A stretch of 64,000 bases of DNA, taken from contig NC_017770.1 of NCBI RefSeq assembly GCF_000242635.2, positions 1,748,669 through 1,812,668 of the forward strand. The letters run 5' to 3'. Origin of the DNA: Solitalea canadensis DSM 3403 (GTDB lineage Bacteria > Bacteroidota > Bacteroidia > Sphingobacteriales > Sphingobacteriaceae). Numbering within the stretch: position 1 is the first letter of the stretch; each line of letters opens with the position of its first letter. Positions 4,024-34,052 of the stretch are shown piece after piece. The notes below the pieces were generated by a model. The model saw nothing but the letters and a program-made list of their open reading frames with translations. It had not been told where the DNA came from and did no database searches. A program made the position numbers and the translations under genes.

Positions 4024-4440
4024 GCCTTTTAAAGCGAATTGTTTCATTTTAATGTGATTTGTTACATTATCCTCTTTAAATAGCAAGCCTCATCCTTTCA
4101 ATAAGTATTCTCTGCCCAAGCTATCTTCAGATCAGACGTTTCAGTTTACATCGGATTAATTAATACGAACGGAATGTTCTGTTCCTCAAGAATTAATCGC
4201 ACTGCAATAGGAGAGTAGAACAGCTGATTGATAATATAAATATGGTAACATGATCAAAAACATGTTTCATCAGCAATACTAATAACACCTTTGTTTTCAA
4301 GCAATCAAAATCATTATGAAGGTTAAATATCTTAAAAAAATAAAGATCTAATCTTCAAAGGTGCTTAAACAGAAAACATCTGGAAATTAGCTCTGAATAC
4401 CTATGAAACTATTGTAAGCTCTTATTTTAATTAATAATAC
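4024..4440. other. Intergenic region between the IS and the RHS operon
   Basis: About 417 nt, very AT-rich. I see no ORF with family resemblance, no RNA gene and no clear TAnnTTTG promoter. It presumably contains the promoter for the RHS operon. Confidence 0.5.
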
Positions 4441-15761: not shown

Positions 15762-16697
15762 TCAGAAATTATTAAATTTAATTTGATGATAAAGTCTCTC
15801 TGCATCTTCAAGCCTGCATAATTCAGTTCCTGCATTTAAAGTGGCAGCAGTTCCGCAGGAAACGCCATATTGTACTGCTGACAAAAGATCCATTCCTCTT
15901 GATAAACTCAGTACGATTCCCGCAACCATACTGTCACCGGCACCTACAGTACTTTTTCGCTTAACCGCAGGAGGAATAATCGTTTTTGCTATATCTCCCG
16001 TTATCAATCTAGCTCCGGCAGCTCCCATTGACACTACAACAATTTCGCATTTTCTTTTTTTTATTAGTTGCCTAGCTGCATCATCCAGCATATCAGTATC
16101 TAACTCTTCCTTGCCCACTAAAGCACTTATTTCGCCCAGATTGGGTTTTAAAAGATAAACTCCTTCATTAACAGCGTGATTTAATGCATCGCCGGATGTA
16201 TCTACGATTAATTTCGCTTTTTTTTGTTTTGAAATTTTTGCGATTTGAGCATATACATCCAATGGAACTCCCGGAGGCAGACTTCCACTGGCCACAATAA
16301 ATTCCAGGTCTTTAAACTGATCTAGAGCCTTTAAGCAAGCGGTCCATTCATCTTCAGAAAGTGGTGAGCCAGGCATTCCAAATCGGTATTGTTGATTGGT
16401 ACTAAGATCATTGATGATGATGTTTTCTCTGGTCTCGCATTTAGCTTCAATTATAACAGATGTGATGGACTCATCTGATAGTAATTTATTAAAGTATTTG
16501 CCTGTATATCCTCCTGAAGGGAAAATTGCTGTAGCTTCTCCTTTCAGTTTTTTAATTGCTCTCGACACATTAATGCCGCCTCCACCAGGCTCTAGTTTCA
16601 AATCATTACATTGTAATTTCTTTTCAGGTACAAGGGAACTTACAGTCGCACTTTTGTCGATGCAGGGACTAAAGGTGATCGTTACAATTGATGACAT
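15762..16697 (-). CDS. PfkB-family 1-phosphofructokinase-like hexose kinase
   Basis: 311 aa, the usual length. Ribokinase-fold signatures are visible: N-terminal sugar-binding GGGGINVSRAI (residues ~37-47) and C-terminal GAGDSMVAG with the catalytic Asp (about 255). The family phosphorylates fructose-1-P, fructose-6-P or tagatose-6-P; substrate cannot be decided here. It is the distal gene of the ppsA-led series, 37 nt from the broken permease gene. PfkB kinases are also part of the mycobacterial DosR dormancy regulon, which parallels its position in this stress cluster. Confidence 0.88.
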   Translation of the reverse strand: MSSIVTITFSPCIDKSATVSSLVPEKKLQCNDLKLEPGGGGINVSRAIKKLKGEATAIFPSGGYTGKYFNKLLSDESITSVIIEAKCETRENIIINDLSTNQQYRFGMPGSPLSEDEWTACLKALDQFKDLEFIVASGSLPPGVPLDVYAQIAKISKQKKAKLIVDTSGDALNHAVNEGVYLLKPNLGEISALVGKEELDTDMLDDAARQLIKKRKCEIVVVSMGAAGARLITGDIAKTIIPPAVKRKSTVGAGDSMVAGIVLSLSRGMDLLSAVQYGVSCGTAATLNAGTELCRLEDAERLYHQIKFNNF

Positions 16698-16734
16698 GGA
16701 TTTATTGTTAGTTCTTGATACTAATTATTATGAT

Positions 16735-17662
16735 TTACCTGCTAAGGAGAATATTCAAAGCTTTCCAGTCCTTAATATGTTCACTTAGTAATTTCAGAAT
16801 TGCAAGTAGCGGAAGTGACAGAACCATTCCGGATGCTCCCCATAAAATACCGCCTATAATAATTGCAATGATTGACGCCCAGGTATTAATATTCAATTGA
16901 GCTCCAACAACCATAGGGAAGATTAGGTTGGCCTCCAGGTATTGTACAAAACCGAAAACAGCAATTACTCCTAAAGGATACCAAAGAGAATCGGTACTTA
17001 ACCATGCCACTGAAATAGGTAGTAATGAACTGACTATAATTCCAACATAGGGTATTATTGTCATAATTGCAGTTAGTATTCCAAACAGAATAGCATGCTC
17101 AATCCCCAGCAATAGCAAGCCAAGACTATTGAGTACACCTACAATAATGTAAACTACAATCATCCCTTTTACATAATTGAAATAAGTTTTGATCGTTTTT
17201 TCTAAAATAGAATGAAGGTCGGCTTTATATCTTTTCCCAACCAATTCTTCAAGAGCACCCACAAATGTTTTTACTTATATTAAAAATGAAATTTGAAAGC
17301 CAGTTGTTTTGGGTATCAATTGTTACTTTCCAATTTTCGTTGAGCCAAAGGCTAATATCAGAAAGTAAAAGTTCGACCTTCCCGATCAGTGAAGGCAGAT
17401 CATTTTGAAAAGTTCTTGCTTCCAAAATCAGTATCCAGATGAGTAAGCCTGAGGCACTGAATAAAATCAACATTGAAATGCTGATTGCAAATGTTTTAGT
17501 ACACTTTTTATTCTCTAACCATCTGCAAACAGGATAAAGAATAATGGCTATTAAGAGGCCAAAAAAAAGTGGAATAAATAAGGTCTTACCAAAATAAAGT
17601 ACAAGAGTGCTTAGTACAGTTATTTGAAGATAACGCAATATAGTAGCTGATATTACCGACAT
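16735..17662 (-). pseudogene. AI-2E family transporter, split by frameshift and internal deletion
   Basis: The N-terminal part reads 17662 to 17249 (137 aa: membrane helices VLYFGKTLFIPLFFGLLIAIILYPV and ISMLILFSASGLLIWILIL). The C-terminal part continues in another frame down to 16735 (helices MIVVYIIVGVLNSLGLLLLGI, TAIMTIIPYVGIIVSSLLPI, ending IGGILWGASGMVLSLPLLAILK). Together they give about 310 residues against 340-370 for the family. Roughly 50-60 residues of the central region are missing at the junction, so this is a deletion plus frameshift, not a simple sequencing slip. The permease is probably non-functional. Confidence 0.8.
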
Positions 17663-17705
17663 ACTTTAGTAAAGCTGTTTGTTTAAAGTATTCTGCTATA
17701 TGTAG

Positions 17706-18254
17706 TTAAATAAGTAATTGTTTACTCCATGACCTTGCCTTAAAAGCGAGAATAATTAATATGAATCCGATTGTGACAGAATAGGCGGCTATTAACCAAA
17801 TTAATGCTAAGGCTCCCGCTCCCGGATTTACAATCACCCAAAGTCCAAACAACATCGAAATGATTCCGTTTAAAGCAAGCCAGGCTTCATTTTCTATTTC
17901 CTTTCTTAATCTTATGGCTGCTATTAGCTCGAGTATTCCGTTGAACAGTGCCCTAAATCCCATAAAAATAACAAGGTATACTGCTGATAAAGCAGGGTAG
18001 ATTAATGTCAGTATTCCAACCGCCATACTGACAATTCCTATAACAAGCATAAAATTCCAATTTTCAGAAGTCTTTTTATGCTGAAGCGAGACCGCTATAG
18101 CTGAGATCCCATCGGCAATTGCATAAATCGCAAACAAAATTAGAAGTGATATTAAGGTAATGCCTGACAGGCTGAAGGCTATAATGCCAAAAATGATACT
18201 TAAAATCCCTCTGATTAACAACGACCACCAGGTTCGGTTCAGAAACGTTTTCAT
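17706..18254 (-). CDS. HdeD family (DUF308) membrane protein
   Basis: 182 aa with six predicted transmembrane helices in three pairs and the alternating small hydrophobic pattern of HdeD proteins (SLLIRGILSIIFGIIAFSLSGITL, GILTLIYPALSAVYLVIFMGF, NGIISMLFGLWVIVNPGAGALALIWLIAAYSVTIG). HdeD is an inner-membrane protein linked to acid and general stress; its biochemical activity is not established. It lies in the ppsA-led operon between the CHAD protein (56 nt) and the AI-2E remnant (43 nt). Confidence 0.85.
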   Translation of the reverse strand: MKTFLNRTWWSLLIRGILSIIFGIIAFSLSGITLISLLILFAIYAIADGISAIAVSLQHKKTSENWNFMLVIGIVSMAVGILTLIYPALSAVYLVIFMGFRALFNGILELIAAIRLRKEIENEAWLALNGIISMLFGLWVIVNPGAGALALIWLIAAYSVTIGFILIILAFKARSWSKQLLI

Positions 18255-18310
18255 AATAAGTACTTAGGGTAATTCTTATAATTTACAAGTAAATAAACTT
18301 TATTGCAAAC

Positions 18311-19150
18311 CTACTTTGCGCTATATGCGTGAGAAGGTAGGTACAGATTATTAAGTGAATTCAGGTCGTGCATTAAAAGCGGTTTAAATTGCTTCTTTTC
18401 TTTTCTTATTTTTTTGCTCACTGATTTTAAAAAATCGGCTTCAGTATCACTTAACTTTTCATAATGACGAGGCTGCAATAAATCAATGGCAGTTGTCAGA
18501 TCATCATAATATTCAAGATCAAGAGCAGCCTTTTCAATCTCTTTAAGTTTAGCTTGGGAGCAGATTTTTACAGGAAACCCATTGCCAAGCTTTTGGTTGA
18601 ATATGAAAATATTGTATAAAATGTCTCGAAGATTCTTCCTCAAAAGTATCAGGTTATCTTCTTGTTCTTTGTTTTCAAGCAATAGTTTAATTTTTGCTAC
18701 TTTATCCTGAATGAAATTTTCAATTGTTGTCTGATGAATACTCTTAGGTAAGTGCTCATGCAATTCCTCTTTTGCATCAGGCAATGGATTTTTGTGAATA
18801 GCCTGATGTAGTTTCAACTTCCAATTGTTAAGCTCTTCTGTTAGTTGATTAGGGTAGTTCTTAATTTCATTTGCTGAAAGGTTAATGTTCTTAATTTTGT
18901 GTTCAAGCCATTGCAAATCCCGAACGATTCCTAAATAACCATAAACAGTTTTCATTTCATTAGGAAGTTTTAATGTAGAATCATTGGCCGATTCAATGTT
19001 TACAATGCGTAAAAAGGCCCTTAATTGCTTAAATTCTTTCCATAAGCTATAAACATTTTCTGATTCGGGTTCATCAATCAGTTTATCAAAGAGTTTCCTG
19101 AAATCCCTGAAATAAAAATTTAATATATGTACTATTTCATCTTTGTTCAT
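18311..19150 (-). CDS. CHAD domain-containing protein
   Basis: 279 aa, mostly alpha-helical and rich in Lys/His/Arg. The conserved CHAD features are a first helix pair with KEFKQLRAFLRIV and YGYLGIVRDLQWLEHKI, and a second repeat with LRKNLRDILYNIF and YDDLTTAIDLL. CHAD domains bind inorganic polyphosphate and associate with polyP granules, so a role in phosphate storage under stress is inferred. It starts 2 nt after the stop of the universal stress protein gene, indicating tight coupling. Confidence 0.82.
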   Translation of the reverse strand: MNKDEIVHILNFYFRDFRKLFDKLIDEPESENVYSLWKEFKQLRAFLRIVNIESANDSTLKLPNEMKTVYGYLGIVRDLQWLEHKIKNINLSANEIKNYPNQLTEELNNWKLKLHQAIHKNPLPDAKEELHEHLPKSIHQTTIENFIQDKVAKIKLLLENKEQEDNLILLRKNLRDILYNIFIFNQKLGNGFPVKICSQAKLKEIEKAALDLEYYDDLTTAIDLLQPRHYEKLSDTEADFLKSVSKKIRKEKKQFKPLLMHDLNSLNNLYLPSHAYSAK

Positions 19151-19152
19151 TG

Positions 19153-19971
19153 TTATTTATGTGCTATAAAAACAGGAGTTTTATAATTCATAATAATTTC
19201 AGAGATAAAACTCCTTCTAAAGAATTCCGACAAACCCGACCTACCGAATGCACCTGCTATCAGTAAGGGATTTTTCTGACCTGCAAGCCATGACATAAAT
19301 TCATATTTCGCATTTGCTCCGAATTTGAATAGGGTAAGGTCTTTGAAATGTCTTGCTGCCAACTCCTCAATATACACCTGGTCAGGTATTGAATCATTAC
19401 CCAGATAGATAAGTGCTGTTTTTTTCTGGCGCCATTCCGGAAACAGGTACGAATATTGTTTAATTGCGTATACAGATGCTTCTGTGCCATCGTAGGTTAA
19501 AATTATACTCGAAGGAAAATGAAATTTCTCCTCAGGAACTAATATTATAGGGCATTCCGTATCCCGTAACACCGATCGCATATATTCATTTGGTTGTTCT
19601 CCTCCTACATTTTTGTAAAACAAATCACTACTAATAATAACCAGATCGGCAAACCGGCTTTCTTTATTTATTTCACTTAAGGCATAAGCTCCTAATCCGT
19701 TATGTATTCTAAAATCAATACCGTTATTTAAACAAAGCGCCTCAAAGCGTTTAATGCTTATTTTTGCTCTTTGCTCGTCGTCTTCTCCTAATCCCCAATC
19801 AGTAAAAACCAGTCCACCTCCAAAACCATATTGAAAAGCGGTTGCATAATCCCTGTTGCTCAAAAAAACACCGGTCAACAAAACAGGGTTCATGCTGTTC
19901 ATATGACAGGCAAAATCAAATGCAGCCTCTGAGAAGTTGGATCCATCAAAAATCAACACTATCTTTTTCAT
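19153..19971 (-). CDS. Universal stress protein, tandem-domain type
   Basis: 272 aa with two Usp folds. The first starts KKIVLIFDGSNFSEAAFDFA and contains ADLVIISSDL. The second starts SSIILTYDGTEASVYAIKQ and ends PLLIAGAFGRSGLSEFFRRSFISEIIMNYKTPVFIAHK, with a G-x-G-R-S pattern resembling the nucleotide-binding loop. This AGAFGR variant is common in Bacteroidota. It sits 23 nt behind ppsA and 2 nt before the CHAD gene. Role: stress or growth-arrest survival, biochemical partner unknown. Confidence 0.88.
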   Translation of the reverse strand: MKKIVLIFDGSNFSEAAFDFACHMNSMNPVLLTGVFLSNRDYATAFQYGFGGGLVFTDWGLGEDDEQRAKISIKRFEALCLNNGIDFRIHNGLGAYALSEINKESRFADLVIISSDLFYKNVGGEQPNEYMRSVLRDTECPIILVPEEKFHFPSSIILTYDGTEASVYAIKQYSYLFPEWRQKKTALIYLGNDSIPDQVYIEELAARHFKDLTLFKFGANAKYEFMSWLAGQKNPLLIAGAFGRSGLSEFFRRSFISEIIMNYKTPVFIAHK

Positions 19972-19994: not shown

Positions 19995-22385
19995 TTAATT
20001 ATTATTCTGAAGCATTAATTCAGCTTCAGCATTATTAATGTTTTTAATTCCTGTTAATAGTGCATCTGGATTAAATGAAATACTACTGATACCCCGTTCA
20101 ACGAGAAATCGGGTAAACTCTGGATAATCACTTGGAGCTTGTCCGCATAGACCGATTTTTTTGCCCAAAGCATTTGCTTTGTCGATTGCCATTGTGATCA
20201 TTTGTTTTACAGCAGGATGTTGTTCATTAAAAAGTGGAGCGATCAGTGCGGTATCCCTATCGATGCCTAGAACAAGTTGAGTAAGATCATTTGACCCGAT
20301 CGAAAAACCGTCAAAAACTCTTGCAAAGTTCTCGGCATCTAATACATTGCTGGGTATTTCGGCCATAACATAGATTTTTAAGCGATTTTCATTGCGTTTT
20401 AATCCAAAGGATTGCATCAAAGCAACAACTTTTTCACCTTCTTCAGCGGTACGGCAAAACGGAATCATTATTTTCACATTTTCCAGGCCCATTTCCTCTC
20501 TAACCATTTTTAGGGCCTTACATTCCAAACGAAATCCTTCCTTATACAGATCGCTGTAATATCGTGATGCACCTCTGAAACCAATCATCGGATTTTCTTC
20601 TTTGGGCTCAAAGTCAACACCTCCAATCAAATTAGCATACTCATTAGTTTTAAAATCACTTGTTCTAACGATTACTTCTTTTGGATAAAAGGCTGCAGCA
20701 ATGGTGGCAATGCTTTCAGTAAGCTTTTCTATGAAATAGCTTTCTTTATCGGCATAATTATGAGTAAGTGTTTCAATTCTTTCTTTTACATTTTCATCCT
20801 TTAACTCATTGAATTTAACCAGTGCCATTGGATGAATTTGTATAGAATTAGCTATTATAAACTCAAGTCTCATTAATCCAACACCATCATTTGGATAAAA
20901 GGAAAGTTTAAACGCTTTTTCAGGGTCTCCTACAATCATCATCACATCTGTAGTTTTAGGCATTGTAACGGATGACAGATCGATTATTTTCGTCTCAAAT
21001 GGAATTTTTCCAGCATATACAAATCCGGTTTTACCTTCGCTGCAAGAAACTGTTATCAGGTCGCCATCTTTAATTTTATCTGTAGCGTTACCTGTTCCTA
21101 CAATAGCAGGAACACCCAGTTCTCTGGCTACAATTGAGGCATGGCTTGTGCGTCCTCCTTTATTGGTAATAATGGCCGCAGTCTTTTTTAAAACTGGATC
21201 CCAGTCGGGGCTCGTAATATCCGTTACAACTATATCCCCATCCTTTAATCGGTCACTTTCATTGGTTGATTTTAATACTCGGGCTGTTCCAGTAGCGATT
21301 TTGCTTCCAATCGCTACTCCTTCAATAACTGTCTTGCCTTTACCGTTAAGCTTAAATTCTATAATTTGTTGGTGATCAGCTTGAGAATGTACAGTTTCAG
21401 GCCTTGCCTGAGTAATGAATAACTCATTTGTCAGGCCATCTTTGGCCCATTCTATATCCATTGGCCGTTGGTAATGTTCCTCTATTTTATAGGCCCATTT
21501 AGCCAGCTTGTGAACCTCATTATCTGTTAAAACAAACTGGTCCCGTTTTGCTAAGGGGGTGTCGGTGTTGATGATTGTTGAATTTTCCGATTCATCATAA
21601 ATCATGGTTTTTGCTTTTTCTCCTAATCTTTTTTGAATAATGGCTTTCTTGCCTTTCAGTAAAGTAGGTTTAAAAACAAAATATTCATCAGGCGTTACAG
21701 TTCCTTGTACTATGTTTTCTCCAAGTCCCCAAACTCCTGATATATGGATCAGCTCACGAAAACCAGATTCAGGATCCAATGTAAACCCTATACCGGAACA
21801 TGCCATATCCGAGCGAACCATTTTTTGTACACCTACAGACAGTAGCACACTATGGTGCGCAAAGTCTTTATCTATTCTATATTTTATAGCCCTATCTGTA
21901 TACAGGGATGCAAAGCATTGCTGTACTGCATTTAAAAGCGCTTGCTCCCCTCTGATATTAAGATAGGATTCATGTTGTCCAGCAAAGCTTGCCGATGGTA
22001 AATCTTCCGCCGTGGCACTACTCCGTACAGCAACCTCAATTTGTGATGCTCCCGATAGGTGATGATATGCTTCAACTATTGCCTGAGCGATTGCAGGAGG
22101 TAGCTTTCCTTTTAAGAAGAGTTGCCGGGCTTCTGATCCGGTTTCTTTAAGATTGGAGAATGATTGTTTGTCTAGCTGTTGCATTACAGTCTGCAGTGGC
22201 AGTTGTAACTGGTTATACTCAATAAAAGTACGAAACGCGTCAGCTGTTACAGCAAAACCGTCAGGCACATTTATTCCACGTGGAGTAAGATGTATAATCA
22301 GTTCACCCAATGATGCATTTTTACCTCCAACTAACGCAATATCATTTAGTGTGATATCCTTAAATTGTTTAATGAAAGTAACCAT
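19995..22385 (-). CDS. ppsA: Phosphoenolpyruvate synthase
   Basis: 796 aa, close to the usual length. It has an N-terminal ATP-grasp pyruvate/PEP-binding domain (GGKNASLGEL, AVRSSATAEDLPSASFAGQ), a central phosphohistidine domain with GGRTSHASIVARELGVPAIVG (catalytic His near residue 415), and a C-terminal PEP-binding TIM barrel (GLCGQAPSDYPEF, Cys acid/base). It converts pyruvate + ATP to PEP + AMP + Pi for gluconeogenesis. First gene of a minus-strand operon running through usp, CHAD, HdeD, AI-2E remnant and pfkB. Its promoter carries the tandem FNR-like boxes described at 22405-22470. The start codon is 19 nt from the -7 element. Confidence 0.93.
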   Translation of the reverse strand: MVTFIKQFKDITLNDIALVGGKNASLGELIIHLTPRGINVPDGFAVTADAFRTFIEYNQLQLPLQTVMQQLDKQSFSNLKETGSEARQLFLKGKLPPAIAQAIVEAYHHLSGASQIEVAVRSSATAEDLPSASFAGQHESYLNIRGEQALLNAVQQCFASLYTDRAIKYRIDKDFAHHSVLLSVGVQKMVRSDMACSGIGFTLDPESGFRELIHISGVWGLGENIVQGTVTPDEYFVFKPTLLKGKKAIIQKRLGEKAKTMIYDESENSTIINTDTPLAKRDQFVLTDNEVHKLAKWAYKIEEHYQRPMDIEWAKDGLTNELFITQARPETVHSQADHQQIIEFKLNGKGKTVIEGVAIGSKIATGTARVLKSTNESDRLKDGDIVVTDITSPDWDPVLKKTAAIITNKGGRTSHASIVARELGVPAIVGTGNATDKIKDGDLITVSCSEGKTGFVYAGKIPFETKIIDLSSVTMPKTTDVMMIVGDPEKAFKLSFYPNDGVGLMRLEFIIANSIQIHPMALVKFNELKDENVKERIETLTHNYADKESYFIEKLTESIATIAAAFYPKEVIVRTSDFKTNEYANLIGGVDFEPKEENPMIGFRGASRYYSDLYKEGFRLECKALKMVREEMGLENVKIMIPFCRTAEEGEKVVALMQSFGLKRNENRLKIYVMAEIPSNVLDAENFARVFDGFSIGSNDLTQLVLGIDRDTALIAPLFNEQHPAVKQMITMAIDKANALGKKIGLCGQAPSDYPEFTRFLVERGISSISFNPDALLTGIKNINNAEAELMLQNNN

Positions 22386-22404: not shown

Positions 22405-22470
22405 TAAAGTTAACCTCATTGTGGTTCTGCTTTTATGAGCAATATCAGGTAAATGGTTGATTTATATCAA
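22405..22470 (-). promoter_or_regulatory. Tandem FNR-like boxes plus -7 element, ppsA promoter
   Basis: Box 1 at 22457-22470 is a perfect palindrome TTGAT-N4-ATCAA (the textbook FNR sequence). Box 2 at 22436-22447, read on the minus strand, is TGAT-N4-CTCA. The centres are 22 bp apart. The -7 element TAACTTTA is at 22405-22412, exactly 44 nt downstream of box 1. With a start about 6 nt after the -7 element, the boxes fall near -42 and -64, the usual class II and class I activator positions. The geometry is identical at 22520-22585 and 27929-27994. Confidence 0.78.
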
Positions 22471-22519
22471 GCAGCGATAATTATGCAGAAACAAGTTTCT
22501 ATTTTGTTCAATTTATATC

Positions 22520-22585
22520 CTGATTTCTATCACAAGGATACTTGATTATTGTCATGCTAATTGATCTGGTAGGATGGTAAATTTA
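22520..22585 (+). promoter_or_regulatory. Tandem FNR-like boxes plus -7 element, flavin protein-kinase-regulator operon
   Basis: Box 1 is CTGAT-N4-ATCAC at 22520-22533. Box 2 is TGAT-N4-GTCA at 22543-22554. The -7 element TAAATTTA is at 22578-22585, again exactly 44 nt after box 1. This promoter is divergent from that of ppsA, and the two pairs of boxes do not overlap. It drives the operon that encodes the CRP/FNR-type response regulator, implying autoregulation. Confidence 0.75.
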
Positions 22586-22611
22586 GTTTATATGTGATAA
22601 AAATTAAGACT

Positions 22612-23043
22612 ATGATAGGTGAGCTAAATGATGATCAAATATTCGAGGTACTTAGAAGTCAGACCATAGGGCGTATTGGCTGCCATGTGGATGAAACAAC
22701 GTATATAGTTCCGGTAAGTTATGTTTTTGACGGAACGTATATTTATGCACATTCAAAGGAAGGCATGAAAATTAAAATGATGCGCCAAAATCCACAGGTG
22801 TGCTTTGAAGTGGAGGAGGTGGAGAGCGCAGCAAGCTGGAGATCTGTAATTGCATGGGGAGAATATGAAGAGCTCCATAACAATGAAGACCGTAATGCTG
22901 CAATGCAATTACTGATAAAGCATTTTTTGCCTTCGATTCAGAATGAATCGATATTGCTTTCTCATGGTTTGGGAACCTATAAAGTAGCGGTCGTTTACCG
23001 GATTCGCTTAGATAAGAAAGTGGGTAGGTTTGAAAAACACTAA
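22612..23043 (+). CDS. Pyridoxamine 5'-phosphate oxidase-family flavin-binding protein
   Basis: 143 aa from the ATG at 22612 (a GTG at 22594 in the same frame falls too close to the predicted promoter). The fold is a split barrel: opening helix (MIGELNDDQIFEVLRSQTIGRIGC), strands YIVPVSYVFDGTYIYAHS, GMKIKMMRQNPQVCFEVEEVE and SWRSVIAWGEYEEL. This matches the small FMN- or haem-binding PNPOx-like group related to NimA. Proteins of this type are common in hypoxia and stress regulons. It is 73 nt upstream of the histidine kinase gene, probably in the same transcript. Confidence 0.82.
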   Translation: MIGELNDDQIFEVLRSQTIGRIGCHVDETTYIVPVSYVFDGTYIYAHSKEGMKIKMMRQNPQVCFEVEEVESAASWRSVIAWGEYEELHNNEDRNAAMQLLIKHFLPSIQNESILLSHGLGTYKVAVVYRIRLDKKVGRFEKH

Positions 23044-23116
23044 ACTTACATTAATAATTATATGATGCATTTTTCTTAATTTGATAGGTGTTTACTATAT
23101 ACATTTCTAAAAATTA

Positions 23117-24391
23117 ATGAAAATTGAGAATAACTTATATAGTACAAGAAACGAGAATCGTCAATTTGAGGCTCTTTTTGATTTTGCAGCAATTGGAATT
23201 GTATTGATTAATGAAACCGGTGAAATTATAAACTTTAACAGGCAAGCTGAATTACAGTTTGGTTATAAAAAAGAAGAGGTGATAGGCTGTCCTGTTGAAT
23301 TGCTGATTCCGATAAAATTTCATCAAAACCACTCCAAATTCAGGGATGATTTTTATAAAAATCCGCAGAACAGACCAATGGGTAGCGGCCGGGATTTATA
23401 TGCACAACGGAAGGATGGAAATGAGTTTCCGGTAGAAGTAAGTCTGAGCTATTACAATACCAATGGTGATATGAATGTGGTTGCTTTTATTATTGATATA
23501 ACCGTACGGAAAGGAAACGAAGCAATTGTTTTAAAGCAAAAAGAAGAGCTGGAATCTTTTAATGATAGAATTCAGCAAATGAATTCAGAGTTAGAACAAA
23601 AGATTGAAGACCGTACAAAAATGTTAAAAGAGACACTTGCTGAACTTGAAAAATCAAAAAATGAGGTTAGTGATGCCTTGGAAAGAGAAAAGGAACTTAG
23701 CGATTTAAAATCACGGTTTGTAACCATGGCTTCTCATGAGTTCAGAACACCCTTAAGTACCATTTTATCATCTGCATCATTGATTGAGCATTATAACGAA
23801 AGTGATGAAAGTGAGAAGAGGCTAAAACATATACAACGCATTAAAAGTGGAGTTACCGCTTTAAAAAGCATTCTTGAAGATTTTTTATCACTGGGAAAGT
23901 TAGAAGAGGGTTCTGTTCAAGCCAAACCGGAGTTGGTGGATGCTGAATTCCTTATCATCGAAATGGAGTCGGTAATACAAGATATGCAGCAACTGGTAAA
24001 ATTGGGACAAACAATAGTTTATTCGTGCAACCTTACTGGAAAAGTATTTATTGATTGTTCGCTTTTTAAAAATATTGCCGTTAACCTAATCTCTAATTCG
24101 ATTAAATTCTCTTCTGAAAATTCAGTTATAGAAGTTGCCTGCTCAAATACCAGCCAATATTTTATTTTTAAGGTGAAAGATAACGGAATTGGAATTTCAG
24201 AAGAAGACCAGAAACATTTGTTCGAACGTTTTTTCAGAGCTAAAAATGCTATTAATGTGCAAGGTACTGGGTTAGGTTTACACATTATTGCTAAATACCT
24301 CGAAATGATGAACGGCAGTATTGAAATAAAAAGTGAGCTTAATAAAGGCTCAGATTTTACTGTTAAAATTCCACAGGTCAACCATGAATAA
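23117..24391 (+). CDS. PAS-domain sensor histidine kinase, possibly FixL-like
   Basis: 424 aa, soluble, with no membrane helix. A PAS domain spans residues ~16-132, a long coiled coil ~135-195. HisKA holds the phosphoacceptor His207 (MASHEFRTP), and HATPase_c the N box (NLISNSIKFS), DNGIG and GTGLGLHI. Within PAS, H72 and R92 are spaced exactly as the haem-ligating His200 and O2-contacting Arg220 of Bradyrhizobium FixL. R206 of FixL is Asp here. Many non-haem PAS domains of this subfamily keep the His, so haem binding is only a hypothesis. The stop overlaps the start of the response regulator by 8 nt. Confidence 0.88.
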   Translation: MKIENNLYSTRNENRQFEALFDFAAIGIVLINETGEIINFNRQAELQFGYKKEEVIGCPVELLIPIKFHQNHSKFRDDFYKNPQNRPMGSGRDLYAQRKDGNEFPVEVSLSYYNTNGDMNVVAFIIDITVRKGNEAIVLKQKEELESFNDRIQQMNSELEQKIEDRTKMLKETLAELEKSKNEVSDALEREKELSDLKSRFVTMASHEFRTPLSTILSSASLIEHYNESDESEKRLKHIQRIKSGVTALKSILEDFLSLGKLEEGSVQAKPELVDAEFLIIEMESVIQDMQQLVKLGQTIVYSCNLTGKVFIDCSLFKNIAVNLISNSIKFSSENSVIEVACSNTSQYFIFKVKDNGIGISEEDQKHLFERFFRAKNAINVQGTGLGLHIIAKYLEMMNGSIEIKSELNKGSDFTVKIPQVNHE

Positions 24392-25451
24392 AGAAGTCAA
24401 AATTTTGTTAATTGAAGATAACCAGGAAGTAAGAGAAAATACTGCTGAGATTCTTGAATTGTCAAATTATAGCGTGTTAACTGCCGATAACGGCAAAACC
24501 GGAGTTGAACTGGCATTAAAGGAGATTCCTGATCTTATTATTTGTGATATCATGATGCCTGTATTAGACGGATATGGTGTACTGCATCTAATTAGTAAAC
24601 ATGATGAAACGGCTGGTATTCCTTTTATCTTTTTATCGGCTAAGTCGGAGAAATTTGATTTCAGAAAAGGTATGGAGTTGGGAGCAGATGATTATTTAAC
24701 CAAACCTTTTGATGAGCATGATTTGCTTAAAGCAGTTGACATGCGTTTAAAGAAATCTCATTTGACTAAAAAGGAATATACTAACGATGAGAAAGGATTA
24801 TCCGATTTTTTTAAGACTGTAAATGGTGTGGAAGGTTTTCAGTTTACAGATCAGGATTATGAACATTTTTGGTATAAGAAAAAGCAATTATTATACATGG
24901 ATGGCCATCGACCGCTTAATATTTTTTTTCTTATTAAGGGAAAAATTAAAACATACAAAATAAGTGAGGATGGGAAAGAACTTATAACAGGAATGTACGG
25001 TCCCGGCGATTTTTTGGGATATACCGCAATCTTAGAAGAAAGCTTTTACATGGAAAATGCTGAAATAATTGAAGATTCGGAACTCATTCACATTCCTCAA
25101 AAGGATTTTCTGCAATTGATAAATACGAATAACCAGATAGCACGACAGTTTATTAAACTTTTAACTCGTAATGTATTGGAGAAGGAAGAACAACTCTTAA
25201 CGCTTGCTTATAATTCTCTTCGCAAAAGGGTTGCTAATGGGTTATTGCAGGTTGCCGAAAAATTTAAGGACTTAGAGAACGACAAGTTAAAGATCGATTT
25301 GTCAAGGGAAAACTTGGCTCATATTATTGGTACTGCAACTGAATCACTTATCAGGACATTAAGCGATTTTAAGAATGAAAAGTTAATCGATATCAATGAT
25401 GGAAGGATCATTATCCTGGAGAAGGAAAAGCTGAAAAAATTATTGTTTTGA
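24384..25451 (+). CDS. Response regulator fused to a CRP/FNR transcription factor
   Basis: 355 aa from the ATG at 24384, overlapping the kinase gene. The receiver domain (1-125) has acidic pocket E11-D12, phosphoacceptor Asp55 (CDIMMP), and the conserved Ser and Lys in LSAK and TKPF. A cyclic-nucleotide-like sensor domain follows (about 165-270, FLIKGKIKTYKISEDGKELITGMYGPGDFLGY), then a Crp-type winged helix (about 290-355). The recognition helix GTATESLIRTLSDF keeps the Glu and Arg of the FNR E-xx-SR motif, though the Ser is Ile. No CxxC or N-terminal Fe-S cysteine cluster is present, so any oxygen signal must come from the kinase. It probably binds the TGAT-N4-ATCA boxes in this cluster. 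Confidence 0.9.
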   Translation: MNKEVKILLIEDNQEVRENTAEILELSNYSVLTADNGKTGVELALKEIPDLIICDIMMPVLDGYGVLHLISKHDETAGIPFIFLSAKSEKFDFRKGMELGADDYLTKPFDEHDLLKAVDMRLKKSHLTKKEYTNDEKGLSDFFKTVNGVEGFQFTDQDYEHFWYKKKQLLYMDGHRPLNIFFLIKGKIKTYKISEDGKELITGMYGPGDFLGYTAILEESFYMENAEIIEDSELIHIPQKDFLQLINTNNQIARQFIKLLTRNVLEKEEQLLTLAYNSLRKRVANGLLQVAEKFKDLENDKLKIDLSRENLAHIIGTATESLIRTLSDFKNEKLIDINDGRIIILEKEKLKKLLF

Positions 25452-25462
25452 GCTGATTACAA

Positions 25463-26299
25463 TCAGGCTGAACCAATCACCTCACTACTTTCTTTAATTA
25501 CATTTTGAAACCTTGTTTTACTGATGCCAATTGATGAGAGAATGGTATGGTCAGCACAAATTTCTTTACACAGTATGATGCCATTTTCCAGTAATTTCAT
25601 TTTTTCAACTGCTGATAATGTCGTTAAACAAGTAATTGGGTAAAGAGATTTGCTGTCTATGCTTTCTCGGATGCTTTTTTCTGCCGGATAATCCCAGCTG
25701 ATTAGCTTTAATCCCATGCATTCCCCATATTTTATAGCATCAAGCGAGAATTTTGTATTGGTAACCACCCATCCCTGGTCAAATGTTATTGTTTTATTAT
25801 TCAACGGAATAGCTTGATTTATCAGATCATTAAATCTTGAATTGATATAAAGTGGAATTTTTACATCACACATATAACCAACCTGGTTATGGAACTTACA
25901 TTCGAGCATGTAATAATGATCGTCTTTACTCGCAATTATATCGATCTCATGGTTAATGCAATGTCCGTGCGCAATGACATTTAAAAATGTGCTGTATCCC
26001 TGATGTTTTAATATTTCTGCATAAAACTTTTCAAAAGGAAAACCGGAAGGTCCCAGCTGCATAATAGCTCTTTTTAAGTTATACTTTGCAGCAATTGCAT
26101 GCGGTTGTTTTTTTAACAGCTGAAAGGCTATTGAATAGATCTCTTTAGTACTTATTCCATCATATAGCTTGTTTTTTATATTATCAATAATAGCGCTTAT
26201 TGCTACATCTGTGGCTCCAGCCCGACTCAGCGACTGTTCAAGTTTCCATTCCGAAAACGGAGCTTTCTCTCCGGAGGCTTTTGTTATAATGATAGACAT
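25463..26299 (-). CDS. ATP-cone domain fused to a PD-(D/E)XK (Mrr-like) nuclease domain
   Basis: 278 aa. The N-terminal ATP-cone (1-90: IITKASGEKAPFSEWKLEQSLSRAGA, KEIYSIAFQLLKKQ) binds (d)ATP in ribonucleotide reductases and NrdR. It is followed by a restriction-endonuclease-like fold with the catalytic series HEIDIIASKDDHYYMLECKFH (Asp, then E-x-K). This fusion is seen near universal stress genes in Bacteroidota, but its function is not established; nucleotide-gated DNA cleavage is inference. It is convergent with the regulator gene and has a TAACTTTA element at 26325-26332 but no clear tandem boxes. Confidence 0.78.
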   Translation of the reverse strand: MSIIITKASGEKAPFSEWKLEQSLSRAGATDVAISAIIDNIKNKLYDGISTKEIYSIAFQLLKKQPHAIAAKYNLKRAIMQLGPSGFPFEKFYAEILKHQGYSTFLNVIAHGHCINHEIDIIASKDDHYYMLECKFHNQVGYMCDVKIPLYINSRFNDLINQAIPLNNKTITFDQGWVVTNTKFSLDAIKYGECMGLKLISWDYPAEKSIRESIDSKSLYPITCLTTLSAVEKMKLLENGIILCKEICADHTILSSIGISKTRFQNVIKESSEVIGSA

Positions 26300-26399
26300 A
26301 AATATATAATGGAATGTACTTAGGTAAAGTTAATGTTATTGGTTTACCAACAGTACCAGAATCAAAAACACTGTGCGGCTTATTTGATTTGCCGATTGA

Positions 26400-26831
26400 T
26401 CATTCATTGTCAATCCTGTTTTCTTCAATTCTATCATCTAATGATTTATGTTTAATGGCATCTGCACTTAACTGAAAACCCTCATAATTTTGGCGAGACA
26501 ATGTCCAATCGTCTGTTAATGATGTTTCGATCCATAGGTTACCCGATTTACGGAATATTTGAGCCGACAACCCTAGTTTTTCCCAAAAATCTTTTTCTAC
26601 CATTGCAACAGTCCGATCTTCGCTTATATCAATTGTATTTGAATTGCCATTTGCTAAATAGTTAATTAATAAATCTTTTGAATCTATCTGATCCGATTTA
26701 GGCGAGGCTTTTTTTGTTTCATGCTGATGCCGGAAGAACTCGACTTTCAAATACGAGTATTCCTTGTTAAAATTACGTTGCAGGTCCGTTACAGTTGCAT
26801 TGTTATCAATTCTTAAAGTAGTCATGGTCAT
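26400..26831 (-). CDS. Conserved-looking hypothetical protein in the ldh operon
   Basis: 143 aa starting at MTMTTLRIDNNATVTDLQ. The longer frame reaching 26927 overlaps ldh and is not preferred. The N-terminus LRIDNNATVTDLQRNFNKEYSYLKVEFFRHQH and the C-terminal segment VEKDFWEKLGLSAQIFRKSGNLWIETSLTDDWTLSRQN suggest a compact alpha/beta cytosolic protein. I do not know a named family. The gene starts 25 nt after the ldh stop, so it is almost certainly co-transcribed and under the tandem-box promoter. Confidence 0.7.
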   Translation of the reverse strand: MTMTTLRIDNNATVTDLQRNFNKEYSYLKVEFFRHQHETKKASPKSDQIDSKDLLINYLANGNSNTIDISEDRTVAMVEKDFWEKLGLSAQIFRKSGNLWIETSLTDDWTLSRQNYEGFQLSADAIKHKSLDDRIEENRIDNE

Positions 26832-26856
26832 ATAGTTCTTAAATGAAAATAGTAGT

Positions 26857-27909
26857 TTACGTAGACAGATTAAGGGATTCTTGTTCAATATTATCGTTCT
26901 CTGTACCAAGATCAGGATGAAGTTCATGAGGCCCTTTTTGCTGTAAAGCCCAGCAATTAATATTTTTGAATATAGTTACCGCAATATTATTAAGGGCTTC
27001 TTTGGTAGCAAAAGCCTGATGCGGAGTGATGAGTACATTAGAATAACTCAATAGTTTTTTAAGCAAGGGATCATTAACCTTTTTTTCTGAATGATCATAA
27101 AAGAACACGTCCTTTTCATGTTCATATACGTCAGCCCCATAATATCCAATTTTACCTTTTTCTATACCTTCAATAATATCTTGTGTATTAACTATGCCGC
27201 CACGTGCCGTATTTATAATCATTACCCCCTGGCGCATAAAGTCAATCATTTCTTTGTTGATCAGGTATTCTGTTCGTTCGTTTAATGGTAGGTGTAAAGT
27301 GATAATATCTGAGTTTTTACATAGTGTTTTTAAATCAGCATAATGCAGCTGATATTTCGATATTAGCTGTTCATTCCTGATCTTATCATAGCCAATCAGG
27401 TTGCAGTCAAAACCACTTAAAATTTGGGTTACAGCACTTCCGATTTTTCCGGTGCCAACAATTCCTACCGTTTTGTGATGTAACGTTGAACCTAACAGAT
27501 TATCAATTTTAAAGTTGTATCGCTGAGTTTGTTGATAAGCCAACGTAAGTTTCCTGATTAGTGCAAGCATCAAACCTATTGCGTGCTCAGCAATACTAAA
27601 AGGGGAGTAGTCAGGAACATTTGCAACAGTTATTCCTAATGCTGCTGCTTTTTTAAGATCGACATGGTCAAAACCTGTGGCTCTAACGGCGATGTATTTT
27701 ATATTATACTCTTTTAGTTTAACAAGAACCGGGGCAGAAGCATCATCGCCTGTAAAAATGCAAACCACACCAGCTCCCTTTGCAAGATGGACTGTATTGA
27801 GTGATAATGACTCTGTAACCATCACTAATTCTAATGAGGTAGTATTTGCGCTGATCAAATACTTCTTCTCAAATTCTCTGGTGCTGAAGACTATAACTTT
27901 CATGACCAT
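26857..27909 (-). CDS. ldhA: D-lactate dehydrogenase (D-2-hydroxyacid dehydrogenase family)
   Basis: 350 aa. NAD-binding motif GTGKIGSAVTQIL (about 150). The catalytic triad of the family is visible: Arg in NTARGGIV, Glu in GADVYEHEKD, and His in ITPHQAF. The YEHEKDVFFYDHS segment is typical of LdhA-type enzymes. It reduces pyruvate to D-lactate and regenerates NAD+ during fermentation. The ATG at 27909 is preferred because it places the start 19 nt after the -7 element, as in ppsA; MKVIV at 27903 is the alternative. Expression is likely controlled by the tandem FNR-like boxes at 27929-27994. Confidence 0.9.
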   Translation of the reverse strand: MVMKVIVFSTREFEKKYLISANTTSLELVMVTESLSLNTVHLAKGAGVVCIFTGDDASAPVLVKLKEYNIKYIAVRATGFDHVDLKKAAALGITVANVPDYSPFSIAEHAIGLMLALIRKLTLAYQQTQRYNFKIDNLLGSTLHHKTVGIVGTGKIGSAVTQILSGFDCNLIGYDKIRNEQLISKYQLHYADLKTLCKNSDIITLHLPLNERTEYLINKEMIDFMRQGVMIINTARGGIVNTQDIIEGIEKGKIGYYGADVYEHEKDVFFYDHSEKKVNDPLLKKLLSYSNVLITPHQAFATKEALNNIAVTIFKNINCWALQQKGPHELHPDLGTENDNIEQESLNLST

Positions 27910-27928
27910 AAAATTTATGTTTATAGTA

Positions 27929-27994
27929 TAAAGTTATGTTGATATACACACTGTAGTTATGAGTTTAATCAAAGGGATGAATGATTTTCATCAA
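27929..27994 (-). promoter_or_regulatory. Tandem FNR-like boxes plus -7 element, ldh promoter
   Basis: Read on the minus strand, box 1 is TTGAT-N4-ATCAT (27981-27994), box 2 is TGAT-N4-CTCA (27960-27971), and the -7 element is TAACTTTA (27929-27936). The 44-nt box-to-element gap, the 22-bp centre spacing and the 19-nt gap to ATG are the same as for ppsA. Confidence 0.77.
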
Positions 27995-33476: not shown

Positions 33477-34052
33477 TTATTCCTTACTTGCTTCTTGGTT
33501 AATATAACCTTCTGCAATTTTAGTTAAAGTAATGTTGGTAGCTTTTTCATTTTCAAGGGTCTCATTCAAAAGTTTCACTACTTCAGTATGTCCCATGTTT
33601 GCTGCAAACGCTTTAAGAGTTCCATAAGTGGCAATTTCATAATGTTCTACTTTTTGTGCTGCTAATATTAAACCAGCATCTCTTACCATTGTTCCACTAT
33701 CTGTGTCGCTTAAAATACTTTCTGCTTCAGAAACAAGACCTTCCATTGCATCACATTTTTTGCCACTTGCTTTTTCACCTAATAAGTCAAAAACTTGTTC
33801 TAATCTGGAAATATGATCCATGGTTTCTTGTGAATGCTTATCAAATGCTGTTGCCAATATCGATGAGGTGGATGCTTTTTTCATTTTAGGAAGGGCTTTC
33901 ACTAAATGCTTCTCGGCCCAGTAAATATCCTTTAGTTCGTCTATGAAAAATTGATGAAATTCTGACTTGCTCATATCATGAGTCATCTTGTCAACTTTAT
34001 TCATTCCCAACTTTTTTGATGAAGATTTACTTCTTTCTTGTGTCGTTGTCAT
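33477..34052 (-). CDS. YciE-like ferritin-like protein (DUF892)
   Basis: 191 aa. The N-terminal ~25 residues are a basic, Ser/Lys-rich tail. A four-helix bundle follows, with FFIDELKDIYWAEKHLVKALPKM, HSQETMDHISRLEQVFDLLG, GLILAAQKVEHYEIATYGTLKAFA and LNETLENEKATNITLTKIAE. Glu/His residues that could ligand a di-iron site (E..E..H and E..H) are in register with the YciE/YciF family. A stress-inducible protein of unknown activity. Single-gene transcript. Confidence 0.87.
   Translation of the reverse strand: MTTTQERSKSSSKKLGMNKVDKMTHDMSKSEFHQFFIDELKDIYWAEKHLVKALPKMKKASTSSILATAFDKHSQETMDHISRLEQVFDLLGEKASGKKCDAMEGLVSEAESILSDTDSGTMVRDAGLILAAQKVEHYEIATYGTLKAFAANMGHTEVVKLLNETLENEKATNITLTKIAEGYINQEASKE

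Follow-up and report, generated by a model that had tools for sequence, protein, structure and literature searches.

Analysis of a 64,000-nucleotide stretch of the Solitalea canadensis DSM 3403 genome (NC_017770.1, positions 1,748,669 to 1,812,668; hereafter the window, in whose numbering positions are given) revealed three promoters sharing one composite element, in which two tandem boxes resembling binding sites of the regulator FNR are followed at a fixed distance by a Bacteroidota -7 element. They precede ppsA (phosphoenolpyruvate synthase), a probable D-lactate dehydrogenase gene (ldh), and an operon encoding a PNPOx-like flavoprotein, a PAS histidine kinase, and a response regulator in which a receiver is fused to a CRP/FNR-type DNA-binding half. 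We consider it probable, from sequence comparison, that the three elements are activator-dependent promoters of a small, self-encoded low-oxygen and stress regulon under this FixL-type kinase and FNR/FixK-like response regulator. The best reading of the whole is a low-oxygen regulon whose promoter code is read by two alternative oxygen inputs.

All three elements matched the pattern TGATN4ATCA-N10-TGATN4STCA-N23-TAANTTTA with 0 mismatches, and 100 dinucleotide shuffles of the window contained no composite, even when up to 3 mismatches were allowed. These results uphold a prediction made earlier from the letters of the window (the original prediction), which had described three promoters with tandem boxes of invariant geometry; it placed the elements correctly but took in one extra 5' base. 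The identical 19 nt that it had measured from -7 element to ATG in ppsA (ATG 22385) and ldh (ATG 27909) were also confirmed. A scan of the whole 5.2-Mb genome (one contig) with the composite model, which it had proposed as a check, returned the window's three elements as the sole matches with fewer than 3 mismatches, all of them perfect, and three further composites at 3 mismatches, compared with 1 in the reversed control. Two additional matches to a position weight matrix (PWM) of the element were not accepted as sites: a weak one at 4229-4293 (+, score 12.2), which lies before an ATG with CACCTTTG as its -7 element (the reversed control predicts about 0.14 such matches per window), and one at 33952 (score 9.0).

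The geometry was examined around relatives of the regulator in named Bacteroidota, using loci of the best 80 of 572 relatives, which extended by as much as 10 kb in either direction and still included near-copies. When the bare core TGA-N6-TCA was required twice, a gap of 10 nt gave 94 pairs in 52 of the 80 loci; over the remaining gap lengths between 0 and 79 nt, the mean was 0.91 pairs and the maximum 9 (at 11 nt). TAnnTTTR stood at offset 23 in 48 of the 94 pairs, on both sides in 3 of them (51 oriented), against 3 pairs each at offsets 22 and 24 and at most 1 at any other offset from 0 to 59. As a logo, 110 sites taken from 54 of the 80 loci give approximately MTGAYNNNNRTCAK, TGAYNNNNVTCAT, and TAnnTTTG in succession, with TGAY half-sites, and the bases flanking the boxes were also biased though they had no part in site selection. 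The original prediction had described the boxes as FNR-like TTGAT, which is correct in the window, where T precedes TGAT in 4 of the 6 boxes and makes them more FNR-like than average, but not family-wide: immediately 5' of TGAT in box 1, 79% of the 110 sites carry A or C and 15% carry T. The PWM scored 192 sites at 18 or above in the named loci and zero in the same DNA read backwards, a count that is not independent because these very loci had served to train the matrix. In another genome of the window's genus (G029), the gene of a lactate dehydrogenase with 63% protein identity is preceded by the same geometry and the USP1 homologue (65%) also has a matrix-scored site, both in promoters otherwise unlike the window's.

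Whole-genome scans, in which oriented matches were counted and a pair flanked by two -7 boxes therefore contributed two, showed that the element accompanies the regulator. Across 151 genomes of the family, the correct pattern at up to 2 mismatches gave 523 matches versus 8 for the reversed pattern; with the gap of 10 and the -7 offset of 23 kept, the conservation in relatives that the original prediction had named as a check was found. An off-by-one control, with box 2 one base short, gave 24 matches in the same genomes and missed the window's own sites. Regulator homologues (E up to 1e-40) were present in 109 of the 151 genomes; 108 of these 109 had a match (499 in total), compared with 17 of the 42 genomes without the regulator (24 in total; Fisher p 2.5e-16, which, like the following p-value, overstates the case because related genomes are not independent). 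In a sample of 345 genomes over the phylum, matches occurred in 39 of 50 genomes with a full-length regulator (200 matches) and in 33 of 295 without (93 matches; p 7.5e-22), where the reversed control gave 9 and three partial regulator matches were classed as without. Among the four genomes searched in the window's genus, the regulator-bearing G000 (the window's own) and G029 had 3 and 12 matches and the regulator-less G004 and G046 had 0. The 12 oriented matches of G029 correspond to 10 box pairs, and 11 of them lie in one 46-kb stretch with the regulator.

The regulator has a CRP/FNR fold with cNMP-binding and HTH_Crp domains (Pfam PF00027, PF13545, PF00325) and stood above cut-off in none of the 25 NCBIfam models listed among 106 matched. 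The phosphoacceptor Asp of the receiver (Asp55) and the Glu and Arg of the recognition helix were each present in 110 of 110 homologues, and the helix position at which E. coli FNR has Ser was Ile in 90 and Ser in 19 of them. An N-terminal Cys cluster of the 4Fe-4S type was not found in the window regulator, whose one Cys is inside the receiver, and 99 of the 110 homologues have 0-1 Cys in the half comprising the cNMP-binding and HTH domains. In the tree, the window regulator groups with sequences from metagenome-assembled genomes of Chitinophagales and Cytophagales (L026, L027) and with G091 of the same family rather than with most of its own family, which suggests that the cluster may have arrived horizontally. 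A second receiver-CRP protein of the genome (G000:C1:1256987-1258024; L293 4973-6031) is about 40% identical to the first and has Glu at the phospho-Asp position; the 12 kb fetched around its gene contained zero scored sites and zero open reading frames (ORFs) matching the window kinase.

In 98 of the 110 loci, a kinase-like ORF was located no more than 150 nt from the regulator; in 89 it lay upstream in the same orientation. The window kinase joins its PAS domain to HisKA/HATPase, as in FixL (Pfam), and when this PAS was searched against the PDB, the top matches were FixL (1d06, E 4.5e-14) and DosP, with 13 of the 16 matched sequences being FixL or DosP chains (we take the entry named yddU to be DosP). 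His72 of the kinase aligns with the His of the FixL and DosP chains, presumably their heme ligand, and His occupies this column in 79 of 81 linked kinases. One kinase served as a control; it lies about 9.7 kb away from another regulator, has Lys in the ligand column, and matched only an engineered light-sensor/FixL fusion and no FixL heme-PAS chain in the PDB at 1e-6. In Adhaeribacter (L115), a PAS-PAS kinase matching FixL at 5e-40 precedes the regulator; Rufibacter (L116) and Pontibacter (L125) have the same gene order, and HemA (glutamyl-tRNA reductase) follows, directly in two of the three. These loci appear to encode a multistep relay, in which the PAS-PAS kinase (PDB match from L115) is followed by a 150-aa protein resembling a receiver, a further protein whose start is receiver-like, the receiver-CRP regulator, and HemA.

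Candidate targets were surveyed in the 80 named loci and 40 fetched loci, many of the latter picked because they bear sites; of the 276 scored sites, all but 19 could be assigned a downstream gene (257 genes). Pfam and NCBIfam supplied the names of representatives. The named loci contributed 167 targets, comprising 20 universal stress proteins (USPs), 16 cbb3 oxidases (CcoNO), 15 kinases of the kinase-regulator pair, 15 members of an unnamed 129-aa family, 13 small proteins of the family encoded at 26400-26927 in the window, 10 DoxX proteins, 7 metal P-ATPases (presumably CcoI-like), 6 Hsp20, 6 HemA, 4 cytochromes c, 8 proteins in five further groups, and 47 others, which remain outside the named classes. 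Further predicted targets were a B12-dependent ribonucleotide reductase (G029), a bifunctional alcohol/aldehyde dehydrogenase (G006), a NiFe-hydrogenase small subunit (G014), ScdA/Ric, and nitroreductase. The cbb3 oxidase, HemA, Hsp20, USPs, DoxX, lactate dehydrogenase, and the kinase gene itself are likely targets, and many of the predicted targets would fit low-oxygen life. The 129-aa family (e.g. L264:678-1097) was a site target 16 times; this family and that of the small window protein are candidate low-oxygen genes. Comparison of sites with stress and fermentation genes, another proposed check, thus found USP, Hsp20, cbb3 oxidase, and lactate dehydrogenase among the targets in relatives' loci, with a bias towards neighbours, and the gluconeogenic, fermentative, and stress scope first ascribed to the regulon is more fully described as a low-oxygen response with a FixL-like kinase.

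A different signal appears unlikely. If the fused regulator read the boxes but responded to nitric oxide, redox state, or general respiratory stress, with a PAS ligand other than heme, this would suit the presence of ScdA/Ric, nitroreductase, Hsp20, and USPs among the targets and the kinase lengths and gene rows that differ between loci; the cbb3 oxidase and HemA, the B12-dependent ribonucleotide reductase and alcohol/aldehyde dehydrogenase named above, and the match of the kinase PAS to FixL and DosP all argue for oxygen instead.

In the low-oxygen regulon that we favour, the PAS kinase, with its FixL-type and probably heme-binding sensor domain, would phosphorylate the receiver of the regulator, with low oxygen as the signal acting through heme. 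Two regulator dimers would bind the tandem boxes, both contacting RNA polymerase from one DNA face, and the bound regulator would activate rather than repress. Passages of PMC9723704 place the sigma-A box TAnnTTTG of Flavobacterium psychrophilum at -12 to -5, and passages of PMC4886647 give -41.5 (class II) and -61.5 (class I) as the usual positions of FNR sites in E. coli. By the F. psychrophilum ruler, the box centres would lie at -41.5 (class II) and -63.5 (class I-like) of the predicted start sites; two activator dimers on one DNA face would be the natural reading of this arrangement. In the window the regulon would include ppsA and the genes behind it, the D-lactate dehydrogenase, and the regulator's own operon, and in relatives the cbb3 oxidase, HemA, and small heat-shock and universal stress proteins.

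Several observations weigh against this interpretation. The window's -7 boxes end in A, where 80% of the logo has G. Only 34 of 82 kinases retain the distal Arg of FixL, and the ligand-column His is not discriminating, since of 16 similar PAS proteins located over 1.5 kb away from a regulator, 15 have it as well; His72 was rejected as a discriminating heme-PAS mark on this ground, the control being itself weak because 8 of the 15 sit about 2 kb before a regulator in its gene row and one is a duplicate. The regulator was present with no site at 2 mismatches in 11 of 50 genomes of the phylum sample and 1 of 109 of the family. The target tallies come mostly from 10 kb on either side of the regulator, and neighbours are over-represented in them. 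In the 31 family genomes that lack both the fused regulator and a close stand-alone FNR, 13 matches occurred in 10 genomes, above the control. These ten (G019, G027, G032, G034, G035, G040, G072, G127, G133, and G148) carry 1-3 composites each, and other CRP proteins may read the same geometry there. Finally, the window genome also encodes a stand-alone Cys-cluster FNR (G000:C1:1667214-1667924) of the same recognition-helix family (GTATE).

This stand-alone protein, which bears the Cys-cluster label because 3 or more Cys occur among residues 1-80, could be the main reader of the three promoters, with the receiver-fused protein as its target or competitor; we regard this as quite improbable. 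It draws on lineages without the fused form, in which a stand-alone protein accompanies the sites. Fourteen genomes with matches and no fused regulator were examined, and 11 carry a stand-alone CRP/FNR protein with an N-terminal Cys cluster and the same helix (shared core G-T-A-T-E-[ST]-x-I-R), the other three (G034, G072, G270) having other CRPs only; 12 phylum-sample genomes had at least 2 sites and no full-length fused regulator, of which G337 and G422 were left out of this check. A composite lies directly behind the stand-alone FNR gene in G024, G295, G416, and G460, and for one stand-alone protein Fnr was the best NCBIfam match, below cut-off. Among the 42 regulator-less family genomes, 11 have a stand-alone FNR (at least 45% identical to that of G004), and 7 of these 11 had matches (11 in total). 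On the other side, all four searched genomes of the window's genus have the stand-alone FNR, and matches occurred only with the fused regulator (3 and 12 versus 0 and 0), 7 of the 12 in G029 (6 of the 10 box pairs) lying within 20 kb of it. Stand-alone FNR without any composite match was found in G004, G046, G008, and G049. The claim of the original prediction that the cluster's own fused regulator reads this regulon is strongly favoured by geometry, co-occurrence, and the genus pattern, but exclusive control is not, given the stand-alone FNR in the genome; with both proteins present, crosstalk is possible.

A broader interpretation, which we hold as a tentative possibility, is that a rigid tandem low-oxygen promoter code has been kept across Bacteroidota while the sensor was exchanged between a direct Fe-S FNR and a FixL-type kinase with a receiver-FNR fusion, and that the fusion arose once and is portable with its promoters as a self-contained regulon. 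A quick tree was built from 77 rows (40 fused, 27 Cys-cluster, and 10 other CRP), and in it the fused proteins formed one branch with a support of 100. Nearest to this branch were eight long-branched other CRPs (support 90) rather than the Cys-cluster proteins, and a constraint holding fused and Cys-cluster proteins as one clade was not rejected (p-AU 0.13, approximately unbiased test). The sensor-exchange interpretation is weakened because the tree does not make the fused and Cys-cluster forms nearest kin.

That the arrangement is a product of chance or of recent duplication of one promoter, as the occurrence of three copies inside 5.6 kb might imply, is hardly credible and was refuted by the comparative counts: the spacers between the boxes, compared by eye, are unrelated among the three elements, which therefore do not look like copies from one recent duplication, no composite arose in the shuffles, and the geometry recurs over the phylum.

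The features of the window are listed in the table. ppsA and the same-strand genes behind it are probably co-transcribed; the USP-like protein in this row fell slightly under the cut-off of Pfam Usp, and a P-type ATPase comes after the PfkB kinase in the leftward direction (Pfam). The AI-2E family transporter of the row (16735-17662, -) consists of two overlapping ORFs, probably a frameshift or a decayed gene. For the PNPOx-like flavoprotein, the ORF caller chose GTG 22594; we prefer ATG 22612, without proof, because the resulting N-terminus (MIGELND...) lines up with that of a homologue (MLGKLNE...), whose start was itself chosen by script. The leftward row from 27909 consists of the D-2-hydroxyacid dehydrogenase, the small unnamed protein, and an ATP-cone/Mrr protein (Pfam).

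Table. Composite promoters and associated genes in the window
Feature	Position	Strand	Details
ppsA composite promoter	22405..22469	-	box 1 22458-22469, box 2 22436-22447, -7 element 22405-22412; 0 mismatches; PWM score 36.2
PNPOx-kinase-regulator operon composite promoter	22521..22585	+	box 1 22521-22532, box 2 22543-22554, -7 element 22578-22585; 0 mismatches; PWM score 33.2
D-lactate dehydrogenase composite promoter	27929..27993	-	box 1 27982-27993, box 2 27960-27971, -7 element 27929-27936; 0 mismatches; PWM score 36.3
ppsA, phosphoenolpyruvate synthase	19995..22385	-	NCBIfam PRK06464 and TIGR01418, above cut-off
Genes behind ppsA: USP-like, CHAD, DUF308, AI-2E transporter (split), PfkB kinase	15762..19971	-	Pfam, ORF order
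PNPOx-like flavoprotein, first gene of the operon	22612..23043	+	Pfam Pyridox_ox_2
PAS histidine kinase, FixL/DosP-like PAS	23117..24391	+	Pfam; PDB sequence search
Regulator: receiver (Asp55), cNMP-binding fold, HTH_Crp	24384..25451	+	Pfam; alignment of 110 homologues, own included
D-2-hydroxyacid dehydrogenase, probably D-lactate	26857..27909	-	Pfam; NCBIfam D-LDH/VanH models, all below cut-off
Small conserved protein without named family	26400..26927	-	without match in Pfam or NCBIfam; 14 fetched loci have homologues as site targets

Among the open-access literature matches listed, which are no proof of absence, there was neither a Bacteroidota regulon of this kind nor a receiver-FNR fusion in that phylum, and no account of the regulation there of cbb3 oxidase and of genes for survival at low oxygen. 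In passages of PMC8510549, CRP/FNR homologues from Flavobacteriales and Saprospiraceae are described as carbon regulators resembling MalR, and the passages of PMC9239204 contained nothing on this regulon or fusion. If the proposed regulon is real, Bacteroidota would gain an oxygen regulon defined by an exact 65-nt motif, for which any genome can be scanned, along with a regulator and a likely sensor. Because the same tandem boxes seem to be read by both the Cys-cluster and the kinase-driven version, the system would in addition offer a natural example of sensors being exchanged while the promoter code is conserved.

The system resembles the FNR/ANR regulons in its TGAT-N4-ATCA core, CRP/FNR fold, recognition-helix Glu and Arg, box 2 centre at an inferred -41.5, and low-oxygen target genes. 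It differs from them in the N-terminal receiver that replaces the N-terminal Cys cluster of FNR, in the family-wide preference for A or C over T before TGAT, and in having two boxes 22 bp apart, with the upstream one at -63.5 and not -61.5. Its half-sites are TGAY, compared with TGTGA for cAMP-CRP. The DosR dormancy regulon of mycobacteria places universal stress, small heat-shock, nitroreductase, and flavoprotein genes under oxygen-responsive two-component control, and the same kinds of genes recur here, although the output domain of the regulator and the motif are unrelated. Similarity to the rhizobial FixL-FixJ-FixK cascade extends to a FixL-like PAS kinase adjoining the regulator, a FixK-like DNA-binding half, and a cbb3 oxidase target. 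FixJ combines a receiver with a LuxR-type output, whereas the regulator described here has a cNMP-binding and HTH_Crp output and no LuxR/NarL-type HTH (Pfam), and its promoters have Bacteroidota -7 elements. Since the receiver and the FixK-like half are fused in one protein, the cascade would be one step shorter than FixL-FixJ-FixK.

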